Part shown: in pieces, positions 7,870-17,089 of the stretch | How positions within the stretch are numbered: position 1 is the stretch's first letter | Layout of the letters: every line of letters starts with the position of its first letter | Source: a virus | IMG/VR virus record: IMGVR_UViG_3300023174_000033 | Coordinates: 372,001 to 436,000 of that record | DNA: 64,000 bases | Direction: 5' to 3' (one strand) | The notes under the pieces: model-generated | Database searches by the model: none | Told to the model about the DNA's origin: nothing | The model's input: the letters and a program-made list of their open reading frames with translations, nothing else | Translations under genes and position numbers: made by a program

Positions 7870-8628
7870 ATGAGCGCCTATTCTTTAGAAGAATTTATTG
7901 ATTTTGTTCAAACTGATGTAACGGTCGGTGGAGCACTTCCAAAAAATTTACCAGACCATTCAATAAGACAATTTATAGAAACAAGGGCTTTACCTTGGTT
8001 CTACCAGAACTATCAATTCGGTGTCAGTAAAATGTATTATTTTGTTGACAAGGCTGCTTTTTCCACAGAAGAGTATACAAGTTATCGTTATATTGAATTA
8101 CCGTGTGAAATTCAATCAGTTACTTGGATATACCAAATAATGAATACTCAACTTTTACAATTAGGTATCAACGTACCTAATTTATCGGTTAATCTTGGTG
8201 TTACTAACCAACCATATCTTTCTTCATATGTGACTACAATTGGTGAATTGGGCATGTATAAGTCTTTGATTGATAACATGGCGGATATGTTAAATCAAAT
8301 GAATTTATATACTGTCAAGTACCATTATAATCAACTGTCTCACAGATTAAATATTCTCACTAATATTCAACATCACTTGGTATTGGAGGCTTATGTGAAT
8401 ATTCCAGCTGAAACTATGTTTACAGATAACTATTTTGTTAAGTATGTTACTGCTTGGGCTAAAATGCAACAAGGAAGATTATTGGGAGCTTTTGATTTCA
8501 GTTTACCAGGTGGTGTTAAGTATAATTCAGCGGATATGGTTAGTCAGGGTAAAGAAGAAATGAAAGAAGTTGAAGATGAAATCAAAGCTATGTCCAATAG
8601 TTCATTTTTTTACCTTGTGAAGAGGTAG
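7870..8628 (+). CDS. Phage protein of unknown function, possible virion component
   Basis: This 252-residue soluble protein has no signal peptide or membrane segment. It starts MSAYSLEEFIDFVQTDVTVG and contains an aromatic-rich stretch, RALPWFYQNYQFGV, at about residues 44-57. The C-terminal part is helical and charged (KEEMKEVEDEIKAM). The length and aromatic N-terminus resemble small neck or connector-type proteins of large myoviruses, but I see no diagnostic motif, so this is a weak inference. It lies on the same strand as the RNR and GT25 genes and is followed after 22 bp by another phage protein. Confidence 0.6.
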   Translation: MSAYSLEEFIDFVQTDVTVGGALPKNLPDHSIRQFIETRALPWFYQNYQFGVSKMYYFVDKAAFSTEEYTSYRYIELPCEIQSVTWIYQIMNTQLLQLGINVPNLSVNLGVTNQPYLSSYVTTIGELGMYKSLIDNMADMLNQMNLYTVKYHYNQLSHRLNILTNIQHHLVLEAYVNIPAETMFTDNYFVKYVTAWAKMQQGRLLGAFDFSLPGGVKYNSADMVSQGKEEMKEVEDEIKAMSNSSFFYLVKR

Positions 8629-8650: not shown

Positions 8651-9205
8651 ATGCCAGCAAATTCGGAGAAACAAAGAAGATTTATTTGGGCCAAGAGGCG
8701 TGAATATGGAAAGAAAAAATCCACCCCCAAAAAATGGAAGTGGATTTGGAAACCTGAGTGGGTTGATTTGAAAGAGTCTTTTACACATATATCAACATTC
8801 CAACAGTTCAACGAAGGTTATGGAACACTAACAAAGGATGATATGGAATTAATTGATGACTTATGTGTTAGTCTAACTGATGACTGGGATTTAAAGACTG
8901 AGATTAATGGACCTGTATATAGTGGTTCAGAACCTTGTGATGGTTTTTTAAATCTACAAATGTTTGATAGGTTTCATATTCAGTTCTCTATACAACTATA
9001 TCAAAGATTTGATTGGAATGAGAATGGTGAATCATTTGAAACAGATTTAAGAAATCTTATCAATAAAATAAAAAGATTTGGATATGAAATTCAAGAATTT
9101 GTTTGGAATTCTGAATTTCATGGTACAAGAACTTGGTCTTTCCAAATCTCACATACTGATAAACGGTCTGAGGAAATATTCAAATCTAAACCCACTGAAC
9201 TGTAA
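8651..9205 (+). CDS. Conserved phage-type protein with basic MPANSEKQRR N-terminus
   Basis: This 184-residue protein has a very basic, tryptophan-rich N-terminus (MPANSEKQRRF, then KKWKWIWKPEW). That opening is common in small phage proteins of unknown function. The rest, from about residue 55, looks like an independent alpha/beta domain with alternating charged and aromatic residues. The basic head suggests nucleic-acid binding, but this is inference. Its last 20 bp overlap the 3' end of the convergent GMP reductase C-terminal gene. Confidence 0.65.
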   Translation: MPANSEKQRRFIWAKRREYGKKKSTPKKWKWIWKPEWVDLKESFTHISTFQQFNEGYGTLTKDDMELIDDLCVSLTDDWDLKTEINGPVYSGSEPCDGFLNLQMFDRFHIQFSIQLYQRFDWNENGESFETDLRNLINKIKRFGYEIQEFVWNSEFHGTRTWSFQISHTDKRSEEIFKSKPTEL

Positions 9206-9731
9206 CAAAAGCATCTAAATCTTTACCACCACCATAAGATATAGAACTTTGTAGACATTCTTCTAGGTATTTCAATCCATCTAAGATAGATTCATTTTTA
9301 AATTCTACCAATGTTTTTCTACCTTCAATTCTATTTGACTTACCAGATTGGAAACTTGAAGCACTACCCCAAAATTCTTTATACTTCTTACCACTAACCT
9401 CTACAATGTGCCCTGGTGAATCATTATAACCAGACATTAAACCACCAGTCATAACCATTGTAGCACCAAGTGCAAGTGATTTAGCGATATCACCTGGGTT
9501 TTTGATACCACCATCAGCAATAATAGGCACATTAGCAACAGTTGCACAATGATAAATAGTTGATGCTTGACAATTTCTTGAACCAAACCCAGTTGATGGG
9601 TATGTTGTACATGCTGAGTTGTGAACAATTATGTGTTCTATATTATATGATTCATCATCTTCAACACTCAAGTCCATAACTTCACCAATATAATTTATTT
9701 TTTCAATATTTTCAATTTCAATAAATTCCAT
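9186..9731 (-). CDS. guaC: GMP reductase C-terminal fragment with N-terminal split-intein half (IntC)
   Basis: Residues 1-38 are an intein C-terminal half. They contain the block F-like stretch GEVMDLSVEDDESYN and end IIVHN, followed by the +1 Ser39 of the C-extein. Residues 39-181 are the C-terminal part of GMP reductase, with catalytic Cys41 in SACTT, then IADGGI, GATMVMTGG, GSASSFQ and LQSSISYGGG. This matches the Bacillus GuaC type rather than CBS-domain IMP dehydrogenases. The IntC sequence closely resembles the naturally split IMPDH-1 intein described from marine metagenomes. Protein trans-splicing with the upstream gene would restore the enzyme, which converts GMP to IMP. Confidence 0.88.
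   Translation of the reverse strand: MEFIEIENIEKINYIGEVMDLSVEDDESYNIEHIIVHNSACTTYPSTGFGSRNCQASTIYHCATVANVPIIADGGIKNPGDIAKSLALGATMVMTGGLMSGYNDSPGHIVEVSGKKYKEFWGSASSFQSGKSNRIEGRKTLVEFKNESILDGLKYLEECLQSSISYGGGKDLDAFVTVQWV
9618..9731 (-). other. Split intein C-terminal half (IntC), 38 residues
   Basis: This is the coding segment for the IntC half. It starts at its own ATG, runs through the conserved DLSV and SYN motifs, and ends with the penultimate His37 and terminal Asn38 needed for Asn cyclization. The extein +1 residue is Ser. A length near 38 residues is normal for IntC of naturally split inteins. Confidence 0.88.
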
Positions 9732-9843
9732 AATTTTTTAATATTTTTTTATAATTATCATTTTTAATATCAGTTTCCCAAATAGACAATAATCTGTATT
9801 TTTTTTCAACCACATATTCCAATTTTAAATTATCGAATACCAT
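9718..9843 (-). pseudogene. 41-codon remnant resembling the C-terminus of a Vsr-like homing endonuclease
   Basis: Between the two GMP reductase half-genes lies a short open frame starting at ATG (9843). It encodes 41 residues, including KKYRLLSIWETDIKNDNYK, and its stop overlaps the start region of the IntC gene in another frame. The YRLLxIWExDI pattern resembles the C-terminal beta-strand and Trp-Glu motif of very-short-patch-repair type endonucleases. A free-standing Vsr-like homing endonuclease is known to occupy exactly this position in fractured split-intein genes. All catalytic parts are absent, so it is best read as a decayed remnant. The assignment rests on a short motif. Confidence 0.5.
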
Positions 9844-9848
9844 TCTTC

Positions 9849-10670
9849 CTATTCACACTTTATCAAAAGATGTTTATTTTTATCTAAATCTTTTGCCTTT
9901 ATCCAAAATGCAAATTCTAATAGATTTTCATTATTTACTAAATCTTTTTTTGACTTTTCAATAACATAAAATTCATGTAATTCTGTACAGGGTGGTAAAT
10001 TATTAATTTTTAATAACTCTTGTTCTCCATAATAAATATGTTTATCTATAACCTTCTTGTACCTATTTTTATGTGTTAGAACCGAATCACCGATTAAAAT
10101 ATTTTGCAAAGACTTCAATCCTTCAAGTGTTTTAACCTCTGATGTCGGTATAAAGCACCCAGGGCCAATACCTACCTTAATAGCATCTGCACCCCATTTT
10201 TCAAGTTCAAATACAGACTCAACAGTTGACACATTACCAGCAATGATAAATGTGTTTGGCATTTTCTCTTTTAGGAACTTAATCATATTGTACATTTTAT
10301 TAGAATGACCATGTGCAATATCAATTGTTATGAAATCTACTTTTAGTTCATATTTTGTGATTTTATCAATTAGATCATAAGAATCTTGATTCACACCCAA
10401 AGAAATTGATGTCACTAGATTATTCTTATTCATAATATTTATGAATGATATAATCATTTGGTCTGTAAAGAACCTATGTAGGATATAGAAATAACCATTT
10501 TCAGCTAATTTTCTCGCTAATTCTATATCTAAAACACATTCCATATTAGCAGGAACGATTGGAAGTTTGAAAGTATGACCACAAAACTTAACAGATGTAT
10601 CACACTCGGCCCTTGACCCAACAACACATTTTTTTGGTATTAGGTTGATATCATCAAAGTCAAATCGCAT
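9849..10670 (-). CDS. guaC: GMP reductase N-terminal fragment fused to split-intein half (IntN)
   Basis: The first 171 residues are the N-terminal part of GMP reductase (FDFDDINLIPKK, SRAECDTSVK, LPIVPANM, NYFYILHRF-like text and IDIAHGHSN). They end at KVGIGPG just before the catalytic loop. Residues 172-273 are an intein N-terminal half beginning Cys172-Phe-Ile-Pro, with GDSVLTH, LHEFYVIEK and the final HLLIKCE. I chose the ATG at 10670 because it follows the upstream gene's TAA by 1 bp and matches the usual GuaC start; a Met 10 codons upstream is possible. The protein is inactive alone and needs trans-splicing with the downstream product. Confidence 0.88.
   Translation of the reverse strand: MRFDFDDINLIPKKCVVGSRAECDTSVKFCGHTFKLPIVPANMECVLDIELARKLAENGYFYILHRFFTDQMIISFINIMNKNNLVTSISLGVNQDSYDLIDKITKYELKVDFITIDIAHGHSNKMYNMIKFLKEKMPNTFIIAGNVSTVESVFELEKWGADAIKVGIGPGCFIPTSEVKTLEGLKSLQNILIGDSVLTHKNRYKKVIDKHIYYGEQELLKINNLPPCTELHEFYVIEKSKKDLVNNENLLEFAFWIKAKDLDKNKHLLIKCE
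9852..10157 (-). other. Split intein N-terminal half (IntN), 102 residues
   Basis: The segment starts at the catalytic Cys (TGC at 10155-10157) right after GIGPG and runs to the TAG stop. It shows the intein block A start (CFIPTSEV), the GDSVL strand, and a block B-like LHEFYV in place of the more usual TxxH. Its tail, FWIKAKDLDKNKHLLIKCE, resembles the end of the published IMPDH-1 IntN. No endonuclease domain is present. Confidence 0.85.
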
Positions 10671-10671
10671 A

Positions 10672-10977
10672 TTAATAGAAGGAATATTTTTCTTGTTCAA
10701 TAATACAATAGTTATTGATTGGGAAAAGATTTATTCTTTCTTCATTTTCATCAACTACACATCTTAAAATTCCATCAATTACATCCTCGTTGAAGATCTT
10801 TGTGGTTGCATTATTTAAACCTTTGAATACGATAAAAAGTGGGTCATCTTTATCAATTGATAAAGGTGTTAGTTTACCCTTTAGTTTACCGTTGTTTCCG
10901 TTATCAAAATAGCTTTGATCGATAATTGACTTGAGTTGATCTTTGTCTTTGAATTCAATTTTTAATTCGTATTTCAT
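10672..10977 (-). CDS. Hypothetical protein, 101 residues
   Basis: I do not recognise this protein. It is charged and soluble, starts MKYELKIEFKDKDQL, and contains CIIEQEKYSFY at the C-terminus. It lies 1 bp upstream of the IntN-bearing GMP reductase gene and about 56 bp downstream of DnaJ on the same strand. It is therefore likely co-transcribed with the chaperone and purine genes. Confidence 0.6.
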   Translation of the reverse strand: MKYELKIEFKDKDQLKSIIDQSYFDNGNNGKLKGKLTPLSIDKDDPLFIVFKGLNNATTKIFNEDVIDGILRCVVDENEERINLFPINNYCIIEQEKYSFY

Positions 10978-12098: not shown

Positions 12099-13785
<1,687 letters not shown>

Positions 13786-13786
13786 A

Positions 13787-14275
13787 TTAATAATTATTGA
13801 AATTTAGTAATTTTTTCACAGCGTTTGTGTTATAAAATTCATAACTTACGTTTTGTACAACTAATTTTGAGATTTCCAGTTCCTTTATATTTTCGGATAA
13901 TTCATCAACGTACTCAATCAAATCTTTCAAAGCATTTGCATAGTTAATTGGTGGTGTCCAATAATCTGGGAACTTCTGAAAAAACTTTTCAATAGCAGTT
14001 TCCAATGATTTTTTCTTAATAAAGAAATTTTCTTTACCTTTTATAGAACGAACTGCCATGAAATGTGTGAGATAATCATTGAATCTGTGAATCAAATTGT
14101 CAGTTTCCATCACTTTTAATAAACCAATAACTATAGCATCTCTTTCAGACAATTCAAATTCAGCATTCTCTTTTAACATTTTTTCAGCTTCCTTCTCTGA
14201 ACCCAAAATATAGTAAGTATAACTATCCCATAGGCAACGTTTCACAATATCCTCAGGCTTTATAATAATTTTCAT
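13787..14275 (-). CDS. Hypothetical protein between infC and grpE
   Basis: I do not recognise this 162-residue protein. It appears all-helical and soluble, starting MKIIIKPEDIVKRCLWDSYTY, with runs of Glu and Lys and a C-terminal FYNTNAVKKLLNFNNY. It lies 1 bp upstream of grpE, so the two are likely co-translated. There is no signal peptide or membrane segment. Confidence 0.65.
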   Translation of the reverse strand: MKIIIKPEDIVKRCLWDSYTYYILGSEKEAEKMLKENAEFELSERDAIVIGLLKVMETDNLIHRFNDYLTHFMAVRSIKGKENFFIKKKSLETAIEKFFQKFPDYWTPPINYANALKDLIEYVDELSENIKELEISKLVVQNVSYEFYNTNAVKKLLNFNNY

Positions 14276-14321
14276 TAAAATTCTTTATTTTTTTAAATTA
14301 TACTATTTAAGTATAGTAAGT

Positions 14322-14852
14322 TTATTTGGTCTTTTTAGGTTTAAGAGTCATTAACCACCTATCACCATCGTATTTTATTGGGTCTTCAAATTGTGAAATA
14401 TCCATTAAAATTTCATAGAATTTTTCCATCACATTTCTACCTCTTTCAGGCATAGATTTTTGTCTACCCTTTAACCTAACCACACATTTCACTTTATCGC
14501 CATCTTCTAGGAACTCCCTAGCCTTCCTTGCTTTTGTTTGTAAATCATTTATGGCAATCTCGCAACTTAATTGAATCTCTCTCAATTCAATTTTTTGTTG
14601 ACTCTTCTGCTTTAGCTTTTGTGCTTTTTCAAAATCATAGATAAATTTGTTATAATCCTCAATTCTTACGATTGGAGGATCTTGATTTTCATTAATTAAA
14701 ATCAAATCTTTACCCTCTGCTTGAGCTATTTTTGATGCTTCAAATGAGGACATTATCCTTGGTTCTCCTTCACCTACAAGTCTGACTTGTGGGAATCTAA
14801 CCTCGGAATTTAATTTGTGTTTTCTCTCTTTTTGTGGCCTTCTTGGATTCAT
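14322..14852 (-). CDS. infC: Translation initiation factor IF-3
   Basis: IF-3 binds the 30S subunit, prevents 50S joining and proofreads start-codon and initiator-tRNA pairing. This 176-residue protein has both domains. The N-domain begins KLNSEVRFPQVRLVGEGEP, where the usual text is NxxIRxxxVRLI. The basic linker is DFEKAQKLKQKSQQ. The C-domain has EIQLSCEIAINDLQTKARKA, KVKCVVRLKGRQ and ERGRNVMEKF. It seems complete. A phage copy could bias initiation toward phage mRNAs, many of which appear to be leaderless or lack a Shine-Dalgarno here, but that is inference. Confidence 0.95.
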   Translation of the reverse strand: MNPRRPQKERKHKLNSEVRFPQVRLVGEGEPRIMSSFEASKIAQAEGKDLILINENQDPPIVRIEDYNKFIYDFEKAQKLKQKSQQKIELREIQLSCEIAINDLQTKARKAREFLEDGDKVKCVVRLKGRQKSMPERGRNVMEKFYEILMDISQFEDPIKYDGDRWLMTLKPKKTK

Positions 14853-15079: not shown

Positions 15080-17089
15080 TTAGTTAATTCTTATTTCCCT
15101 CCATCTATTGTATTGAGCATCATTGCCACTGATTTCAATAACTCTACCAGTGCGGTTGATTGGGATATTCATACGAACTTTACCACTCGTTGTGGTGAAT
15201 ACTTGAACACCATCAACAAATACTGATAAGCTTAGAATTGGTGAACCCCAAGTTGATCCGGATAAAAATCCAGACCAAACATTAATACTTGGAATGTTCC
15301 TTGAAGCTGACAGAGTACATTGTATCCTTGATGGTCCTGTTGTTACCCATCTTGAATTATTTGTGGCGGTGTCACCATCTCTGATTAATAATGTATCACC
15401 AGCATATCTTGTACCAGTACACTTCCAAACAATTGTGCCAGTTGGAGCCGTGGAAGTTTTAAAAGTAAGCTGTGTGCCATAAGCAGTTCCGCTTGAATTA
15501 GTTGCATAAGCTCTCACATAGTAAGTTGTATTTGAGGTTAGTCCAGTTATTGAGCTCACATAAGAACCAACACCACTTCCGTTTACTGTTTTAGTCGTGA
15601 GTGACACCGTAGGATTCTGTGCGGTTGACCAAACAACTCCCCTAGCAGTAACAGTTGCGCCACCATCCGCAGTTACATTACCACCAGTGGTAACTGAATT
15701 TGTGGTTATATTACCGACCGTAGTTGTTGTAATAGTTGGTAAAACAATACCAGTGGAACAAGCTTGTACAGTAACTTGTGTCGGATAGGAATTACATCCC
15801 GATGGACTACCAGTCGCTGTTCTTGTTTGATATCCGTTAACACAAGGGCCCCAAGGTCCATAAGTCCAAGAGGTGCAAATACCAGTGCCGGTTCCGGGAA
15901 CTGTTGATACATTCAAAGTCTGTTGCATAACAGCGGCACAAGTTGGGTGAAAACCTAATGATAATTTAAGTGTTCCGTTTAAGTGACAATAACTCATAAT
16001 TGTACCACCCAATTTAGGATTCTTTATGGTAGTTCCACAATTATAAGAATTGTAAGTTTCACCACCATAACAAGAATCTAATCTACCAACTCCACCATTT
16101 GGTAAAGGCCAACCACACCATTGAGTATGTTTTGAACCATAAGAGTGACCCTCTTCGTGACTCACTACATAAATAGACCAAGCATAATCATTAGTTATAG
16201 TCAATGTGTTGTAGATACCCGATACTGCGGTATTATAAAGACCACCTCTGCCAACTTGACCTATGTAAGCAATTCCACCATAATTTTTGTTTGTTAGTAA
16301 GTGTTTCAAGTCAACATCTGTCCTTGAGGTATAATCTGTTGTAAATTGAGACAATGCTGAAAATGATGAAAGTATTTTGTAATAATTGGAAGTGTCTGTT
16401 AATATTTGCACTTCTTTTATCTTATTATTGATTCCAATCCTATTATAATAAACCAATTTTGCAGCTTGTAAGTTAGCAACAAAATTCGTAATATTTTGTG
16501 TATTTCTTGCGAAGTTTACATACATATCAAAATCCACCACATAAAGTATATCAGCAACTTTATTACTAATCGCGACAGCTCCTCCAGTCACTGTCTGTCC
16601 CGTAGATGGTGTTTGACCTTCAGTGGGCGAATAATTTAGATTTGGAGTTTTGTAATCAGGGGGTAATGCGGGTTCTTCTGTTTCAAGGGGAATTTGTGTC
16701 TCACTTGGTTGTACTAATCCCTCATCTGTGATGTTTAATCCATCCATTGTGCCCAGTACTCCACTCTCGGTTATTGTTAAAACACCCTCTCTACCATTCT
16801 TGGTAATTTTGAAGTGTTTTGGTTTTTTCACTTTTACTTGTTTTTTACCTTCAGTAACAATAAAGTCAGGTAGTGTGAATTCCTCCGCATCAACGTCAAG
16901 TGTATCAGATAACTTTATTTTAACCTTCTTAAAAGATTTTATCTTCGTGTGGTTCTTTTTGTTAATTTGCTTTTTTGGGGTTCCTTGACTTTTCCCAGAA
17001 TTTACAACTTTCACTTCATAAAGGTCAATGACTTGACCATAGGAAATAAAAGATAAAAACAGAAAAAATAAAAGTAGTAGTTTTTTCAT
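15080..17089 (-). CDS. Secreted metzincin-type zinc metalloprotease with TSP1-like and FN3-like domains
   Basis: A signal peptide (MKKLLLLFFLFLSFISYG) precedes a basic propeptide-like region. The catalytic domain (about 170-400) carries HEEGHSYGSKH at residues 311-321, the HExxHxxGxxH zinc motif of metzincins, followed by Cys-rich text as in reprolysin-like enzymes. After it come a thrombospondin-type-1-like stretch (WTYGPWGPCVNG, about 413-445), a Bacteroidota-style fibronectin-like domain (about 460-550, ending YYVRAYATN) and a C-terminal domain of about 110 residues that may bind a ligand. It probably cleaves host surface or matrix proteins outside the cytoplasm. There is no type IX sorting domain. 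Alternatively it is a virion-borne protease. Confidence 0.85.
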   Translation of the reverse strand: MKKLLLLFFLFLSFISYGQVIDLYEVKVVNSGKSQGTPKKQINKKNHTKIKSFKKVKIKLSDTLDVDAEEFTLPDFIVTEGKKQVKVKKPKHFKITKNGREGVLTITESGVLGTMDGLNITDEGLVQPSETQIPLETEEPALPPDYKTPNLNYSPTEGQTPSTGQTVTGGAVAISNKVADILYVVDFDMYVNFARNTQNITNFVANLQAAKLVYYNRIGINNKIKEVQILTDTSNYYKILSSFSALSQFTTDYTSRTDVDLKHLLTNKNYGGIAYIGQVGRGGLYNTAVSGIYNTLTITNDYAWSIYVVSHEEGHSYGSKHTQWCGWPLPNGGVGRLDSCYGGETYNSYNCGTTIKNPKLGGTIMSYCHLNGTLKLSLGFHPTCAAVMQQTLNVSTVPGTGTGICTSWTYGPWGPCVNGYQTRTATGSPSGCNSYPTQVTVQACSTGIVLPTITTTTVGNITTNSVTTGGNVTADGGATVTARGVVWSTAQNPTVSLTTKTVNGSGVGSYVSSITGLTSNTTYYVRAYATNSSGTAYGTQLTFKTSTAPTGTIVWKCTGTRYAGDTLLIRDGDTATNNSRWVTTGPSRIQCTLSASRNIPSINVWSGFLSGSTWGSPILSLSVFVDGVQVFTTTSGKVRMNIPINRTGRVIEISGNDAQYNRWREIRIN

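Follow-up and report, generated by a model that had tools for sequence, protein, structure and literature searches.

A fractured phage GMP reductase gene with a predicted IMPDH-1-family split intein in its catalytic loop

The IMPDH-1 split intein and the fractured genes that contain it, in which a homing endonuclease gene lies between the genes encoding the N-terminal (IntN) and C-terminal (IntC) intein halves, were reportedly described by Dassa et al. in 2009 (doi 10.1093/nar/gkp095). Here we describe an arrangement of this known type in a virus record of 464,605 bases (IMGVR_UViG_3300023174_000033), of which bases 372001-436000, a stretch of 64,000 nucleotides (the window), were analyzed; coordinates are window positions unless prefixed. 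At 9186-10670 on the minus strand, two adjacent genes encode parts of one protein, a GMP reductase (GuaC), and we consider it highly probable that guaC has been fractured by a natural split intein of the IMPDH-1 family inserted in the catalytic loop, the associated nuclease having since been deleted. The enzyme is homologous to IMP dehydrogenase (IMPDH), and the insertion site and split position are the same as in the IMPDH-1 fractured genes, whose three-gene layout is also found in most relatives of the window system. The window system differs in that its extein is a Bacillus-type GMP reductase, its nuclease is reduced to a stub, and its intein is 42-45% identical to those of four loci (L011, L014, L015, and L016) that look like the IMPDH-1 type itself. 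What sets this locus apart is the rare host gene, the nuclease stub, and an unusually clear evolutionary series among its relatives.

Four other described or related systems invite comparison. (i) Locus L020 (IMGVR_UViG_3300031772_000331) likewise has a split gene of the GMP reductase type with a split intein at the same site, but it retains a full nuclease (stop-to-stop frame of 322 codons), and its extein and intein are only 44 and 43% identical to those of the window. (ii) The gp41-1 split intein (PDB 6QAZ and 6RIZ) has the closest solved structure by profile and ranks first in the fold search, although its sequence is distant and its host gene, that of a phage helicase, is unlike that of the window. 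(iii) The full-length nuclease relatives share NUMOD3 repeats and a C-terminal DUF559 domain with the I-Bth0305I/EDxHD homing endonucleases (PMC3943268), a likeness of domain type and layout as opposed to direct comparison, whereas the window keeps only about the last 34-41 residues and no active site. (iv) Bacillus GuaC (PDB 1ypf) and gp120 of Bacillus phage G are full-length members of the same enzyme family, both encoded by single unbroken intein-free genes. A literature search that combined GMP reductase with phage and intein found a single paper, on an unrelated subject.

The anatomy of the locus (Table 1) agrees with an earlier note on this DNA, which had described two minus-strand genes encoding the N-extein with IntN and IntC with the C-extein. 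The N-extein ends in IKVGIGPG, and Cys1 of IntN follows directly. The N-gene and C-gene lie in one frame, and the spacer of 117 nucleotides between them adds two in-frame stops beyond the N-gene TAG, so that neither one frameshift nor readthrough of a single stop yields one gene. TAG is an ordinary stop in the window, where frames of at least 150 residues end in TAA (32), TGA (12), or TAG (6); together with the multiple spacer stops, this rules out stop readthrough or recoding. A frameshift introduced into an ordinary guaC by sequencing or assembly (the earlier note had named a frameshift-only explanation) is practically excluded: 140 intein codons and the multistop spacer intervene, the same layout recurs in 22 other split systems, and nothing was found that counts in its favor.

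Table 1. Coordinates of the fractured guaC locus and associated genes
Feature	Position	Strand	Basis or remark
N-gene	ATG 10670 to TAG 9849-9851	-	171 GuaC residues + 102-aa IntN
N-extein, GuaC residues 1-171, MRFDFDD...KVGIGPG	10158..10670	-	NF003966, TIGR01306, and PF00478 matches; aligns to unbroken L002 GuaC
IntN, 102 aa, CFIPTSEV...CTELHEFYV...KHLLIKCE	9852..10157	-	Cys1; TxxH block = CTELH
TAG stop of N-gene	9849..9851	-	
41-aa open reading frame MVFDNLKLEYVVEKKYRLLSIWETDIKNDNYKKILKNYGIY, putative C-terminal stub of a deleted homing endonuclease	9718..9843	-	Profile match
C-gene	ATG 9731 to TAG 9186-9188	-	38-aa IntC + 143-aa C-extein
IntC, 38 aa, MEFIEIENIEKINYIGEVMDLSVEDDESYNIEHIIVHN (MEF...SYNIEHIIVHN)	9618..9731	-	Penultimate His, terminal Asn; PF14890 C-part weak match
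C-extein, GuaC residues 172-314, starts SACTTYPSTGFG	9189..9617	-	Ser-Ala-Cys174 (presumed catalytic)-Thr-Thr
Conserved small gene directly upstream of guaC	10672..10977	-	Marks orthologous locus in syntenic phages
purA, adenylosuccinate synthetase (IMP to adenylosuccinate)	12099..13334	-	NF002223, 533 bits, over cut-off
ClpB pieces	L154 1195-2685; L147 910-2109		Outside window

When joined, the exteins comprise 314 residues, the same length as the unbroken L002 protein and the size anticipated in the earlier note. The joined extein passes the cut-off of NF003966, the NCBIfam GMP reductase model (423.4 bits; cut-off 344); with TIGR01306, the Bacillus-type model, it scores 390.5 bits, below that model's own cut-off of 465.65, and the best IMPDH model, at 177 bits, lies far under this score. 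The GMP reductase structure 1ypf aligns to it over its full length (E 8e-105). The window GuaC keeps C174, T176, and E269, which are invariant in the alignment; C174 is taken as the catalytic residue of GMP reductases, and roles are also assigned to T176, two residues on, and to E269, which precedes the conserved flap Gly. An alignment of 70 distinct intein-free viral GuaC proteins has 63 columns with conservation of 95% or more, all of which the window protein keeps, on both sides of the break, and in the extein tree the window guaC is nested among intein-free viral GuaC with a short end branch (0.24), which argues that both halves are under selection as one enzyme. On this evidence the extein is assigned to the Bacillus-type GuaC, as had been claimed. 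That clade (18 rows, 100% in the Shimodaira-Hasegawa-like approximate likelihood ratio test, SH-aLRT) contains the intein only in the window and L020, and its other members are intein-free; GuaC-type exteins are thus rare hosts of this intein family. The exteins of L006, L014, and L028 score best as IMP dehydrogenase and are 348-390 residues long, that of L020 scores as GMP reductase, and that of L007 passes no model at the threshold used, so that the family spans more than one enzyme type. The contrast with a CBS-domain IMPDH drawn in the earlier note holds for the GuaC type of the window extein but not for the family, whose IMPDH-type exteins (about 350-390 residues) are also too short for CBS domains.

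Unbroken relatives show what the spliced product would look like. Viral GuaC relatives number 315, and the best 80 of these 315 all match as one contiguous stretch, i.e. are unbroken. The intein-free L002 protein, 65-66% identical to that of the window, reads GIGPGSACTTYP at the junction (GIGPG-SACTT), exactly as predicted for the spliced window product. In six loci (L058, L060, L061/062, L098, L110, and L115), a homologue of the conserved small gene adjoins an unbroken guaC upstream and a homologue of the head-tail connector gene (7870-8628 in the window) is also present; DnaJ, GrpE, and IF3 genes are additionally found in several of them. These six syntenic loci represent the empty site within the same gene neighborhood. 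The small-gene homologue is also the upstream neighbor of a different, unbroken IMPDH/GMPR-like gene at the same locus of LR745206, an uncultured 634-kb megaphage (L141 3978-5492); this gene is 45% identical to the L007 extein, and different lineages seem to have swapped the enzyme gene found here.

The intein was compared within a set of 25 distinct systems, the window and 24 further viral members, obtained from the 34 viral loci of an IntN profile search by removing two unrelated loci, one truncated locus, and duplicates, and by adding L045 and L046 from the nuclease search. All 25 have the homologous insertion site, before the Ser-x-Cys of the catalytic loop in an IMPDH or GMP reductase gene, and all keep Cys1, the terminal His-Asn, and Ser+1. 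The junction proposed in the earlier note, GIGPG followed by Cys1...Asn and by Ser-Ala-Cys directly before the catalytic Cys, is borne out by this shared site and by the L002 junction. Two members are contiguous mini-inteins (L010 and L036), 15 are split with a nuclease gene, and 8, including the window, are split without one. It could be supposed that the halves act unspliced as a two-subunit enzyme: the break falls in a loop, association of two half-barrels is conceivable in principle, and such behavior is reported for a phage ribonucleotide reductase whose gene is interrupted by a homing endonuclease gene (cited in PMC10448857). We regard this as highly improbable, since the intein end residues are kept throughout the set although the inteins differ by about half of their residues, and since a lack of splicing would leave about 100 surplus residues attached to one half and 38 to the other, at a point two residues ahead of the catalytic Cys.

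The window IntN matches the family profile with E 4.1e-39 and is 50% identical to the IntN of L006 and 55% to that of L007; IntC plus the junction is 50% identical to L006. Identity of the joined intein ranges from 35 to 53% across all members and is highest with L007. The splicing-related positions that mark a class 1 split intein are intact, namely Cys1, Thr58 and His61 of block B (T58-E-L-H61), Asp122 of block F, His139, and Asn140, and the terminal junction reads VHN followed by Ser+1. With the joined-intein profile, the solved gp41-1 split intein is matched at E 3.6e-8. An AlphaFold model of IntN (mean predicted local distance difference test score, pLDDT, 88.8) has almost exclusively inteins as its best PDB matches, gp41-1 first; the matches are weak (E >0.02, template modeling score, TM, <0.5), as expected for half a Hint domain. 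The extein score of 423 bits, the IntN E value of 4e-39, and an unbroken homologue with the exact junction are far beyond chance. By profile and direct splicing residues, the window element is assigned to the IMPDH-1 family, as had been suggested, but the resemblance is not the close one described in the earlier note. Elsewhere in the phage no second copy was found, the IntN profile matching only the guaC locus, and a PF14890 match at 235794-236036 of the same phage was rejected, with three stops within it and no intein recognized. The IntN pattern CT[KE]NHEF[YF] had three matches in 84,980 bacterial and archaeal genomes, none of them a relative, with a pattern so strict that it would miss the window itself.

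Several observations weigh against a functional element. The window intein departs from the family at four invariant or near-invariant columns (I17L, E46Q, I54L, and N60L), which include no direct splicing residue; position 60 adjoins the block-B His, so that splicing activity may be reduced. Its branch in the tree is long (1.44), no close relative of the exact element was found among the viral loci searched, and no clear Shine-Dalgarno sequence was found for the IntC gene. A decaying insertion, with an intein that no longer splices or a gene that has lost its function, would account for the long branch, the four departures, and the loss of the nuclease; we nevertheless judge decay very unlikely, as the direct splicing residues are intact, the extein is not accelerated, and the 63 conserved columns are kept on both sides of the break. 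The preferred reading of a fractured guaC with a splicing intein implies the following sequence of events. The two genes would be translated separately, and IntN and IntC would associate into one Hint domain, whose trans-splicing, carried out by Cys1, Asn140 at the end of the joined intein, and Ser+1, would release a 314-residue GuaC with the loop GIGPG-SACTT restored. Splicing would in this way bring the presumed catalytic Cys174 into one chain with the remaining active-site residues, and the resulting GuaC would convert GMP to IMP.

The spacer contains what appears to be a relic of mobility that the earlier note, correct on the two halves, had overlooked. In 15 relatives a nuclease gene of about 270-370 codons lies between the halves and encodes NUMOD3 repeats and a C-terminal DUF559 domain with the motif E-x-D/N-G-x-x-W/F-H. 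The window has no full nuclease gene at this position, only a C-terminal stub, and the occurrence of 15 split systems with and 8 without the gene indicates that the nuclease is optional within the family. Within the 41-residue open reading frame, the stretch LKLEYVVEKKYRLLSIWETDIKNDNYKKILKN matches the last part of the nucleases of relatives. Among 1697 window frames, the stub is the sole significant match to a profile of the IWE subset (E 5.8e-9; next best 0.07) and matches the full nuclease profile with E 8.9e-5 (next best 0.36), the latter being the fairer test since the subset profile was picked after the motif had been seen. The stub starts past the E-x-D-G-x-x-W-H motif and therefore has no active site, and 14 nucleotides at its 3' end are shared with the beginning of the IntC gene. 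We interpret the spacer as encoding the C-terminal remnant of a DUF559/NUMOD3 (EDxHD-like) homing endonuclease. The element would have arrived as a mobile unit with this nuclease encoded between the halves, and all but about the last 34-41 codons would later have been deleted, leaving an element that is now probably immobile by itself. In the same phage the nuclease profile found no full relative that might act in trans; it matched a NUMOD repeat in a GIY-YIG-like frame near 203297 of the phage, plus one weak match.

Comparable stubs occur between the halves in L015, L018/019, L021, L030, and L034/035, so that a recognizable C-terminal stub is found in six of the seven distinct nuclease-less split systems, the L026 spacer having none. 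The stub of L030 contains a single stop, a TGA where Trp is expected. In this contig (IMGVR_UViG_3300035698_015638; 6266 bases, with a split-intein IMPDH), reading TGA as Trp lifts the frames of at least 150 residues from 1012 to 2086 residues, and the L030 stub is thus probably open. A further proposal, which would add to the main reading and to which we give slightly less than even credence, is that the stub is retained as the translation start region of the IntC gene, by coupling or as a leader, and that any deletion of the nuclease therefore has to spare it. The recurrence of the stub, the fit of the L030 frames to TGA as Trp, and, in the window, an ATG after AGGAAG in a stub whose end overlaps the IntC start are all in keeping with such a role. 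Conversely, no in-frame ATG occurs in the stretch read of the L015, L018, and L034 stubs, L026 does without a recognizable stub, and a merely recent deletion, as in L014/L015, would look alike.

Mobility of the family is evident among the relatives. Between L014 and L015 the synonymous divergence (dS) is 0.023 in the intein and 0.41 in the extein, and between L011 and L016 it is 0.035 and 0.44. The DNA of L014 and L015 is 97-100% identical over the intein and 66-90% across large parts of the exteins. From L015 a block (about 5321-6037 of L014) has been cleanly removed, namely the nuclease minus its 3' end. This pair is best read as a homing-type island followed by the same nuclease deletion as we propose for the window. 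The window and L007 are 53% identical in their inteins and 28% in their exteins, and their inteins group together with moderate support (91/72); as the window extein is, in contrast, 65% identical to that of intein-free L002, the element has probably moved between different host genes. In L049 (4740-6666) and L050 (3715-5642), full-length nucleases of the family adjoin a guaC that is unbroken and lacks an intein; the nuclease precedes guaC in one locus and follows it in the other, with frames that overlap the guaC ends. The split guaC of L020 has that of L049 as its sister (99%), and a single clade (97/95) unites the three nucleases of L020, L049, and L050; this arrangement is a possible intermediate on the way to a fractured gene. 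Nucleases that stand free next to the gene they target have precedents in intronless and collaborative homing (PMC6083498, PMC10448857). At the other end of the series, L010 (4452-5954), an IMPDH case, has a contiguous frame of 500 residues with a mini-intein in which MKFKLV, the usual start of the IntC gene, is still present; its intein is sister to the split intein of L045 (97/91), and it probably represents a refusion of split halves into a contiguous intein.

Both purA and purB are located near guaC in the window phage. The purA product scores 131 bits with the PurZ model (cut-off 300), and purB at G000:C1:367551-368855 passes the cut-off of TIGR00928 with 383.5 bits. GuaC, PurA, and PurB together are predicted to give the route GMP to IMP to adenylosuccinate to AMP, with the phage PurA and PurB acting on the IMP formed by spliced GuaC, and a phage with 33% G+C in the window would benefit from converting guanine into adenine nucleotides. 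Purine salvage by this route would depend on splicing. PurA was not seen in the fetched stretches of the syntenic relatives with an unbroken guaC, so that purA at this spot looks lineage-specific. Beyond purA, the window contains host-like GrpE and IF3 genes (13339-14852) and a reprolysin-like metallopeptidase of 669 residues (15080-17089). The connector is closest to those of uncultured megaphages of 634-735 kb and is more distantly related to those of Sphingomonas phage PAU and of Tenacibaculum, Chryseobacterium, and Prevotella phages; the Bacteroidota host given as probable in the earlier note is plausible from the distant relatives, the nearest being the uncultured megaphages.

A second, atypical split intein divides ClpB in the same phage, and the two pieces of its gene are on different strands with about 48 kb between them (G000:C1:169694-171184, plus strand, and 120909-122109, minus strand). 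The second AAA domain is interrupted within its Walker A motif (GPTGVGK|CVTKDTS...LLQQIS), with an IntN of 31 residues and an IntC piece of about 124 residues that ends LLSHN|TQLAKVLAEHLFD, and the profile halves meet at 608-610 of TIGR03346. By sequence, CatC and gp41-1 are the nearest inteins of solved structure; a related IntC-ClpB piece is present in L161, and other phages have ClpB without the split. More tentatively than the role suggested for the stub, guaC and its relatives may together represent every stage in the life of a fractured gene, from a nuclease beside an unbroken guaC (L049 and L050), to one inside a split guaC (L020), to a stub, conserved and possibly functional, in the window and five others, and to the re-fused L010, with the window phage relying on trans-splicing for both GuaC and ClpB. 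This series of loci makes the origin and fate of fractured genes testable. The split inteins of the IMPDH-1 family, like gp41-1, rank with the fastest tools now used for protein ligation (PMC11766414), and the diverged window intein adds a candidate orthogonal pair.
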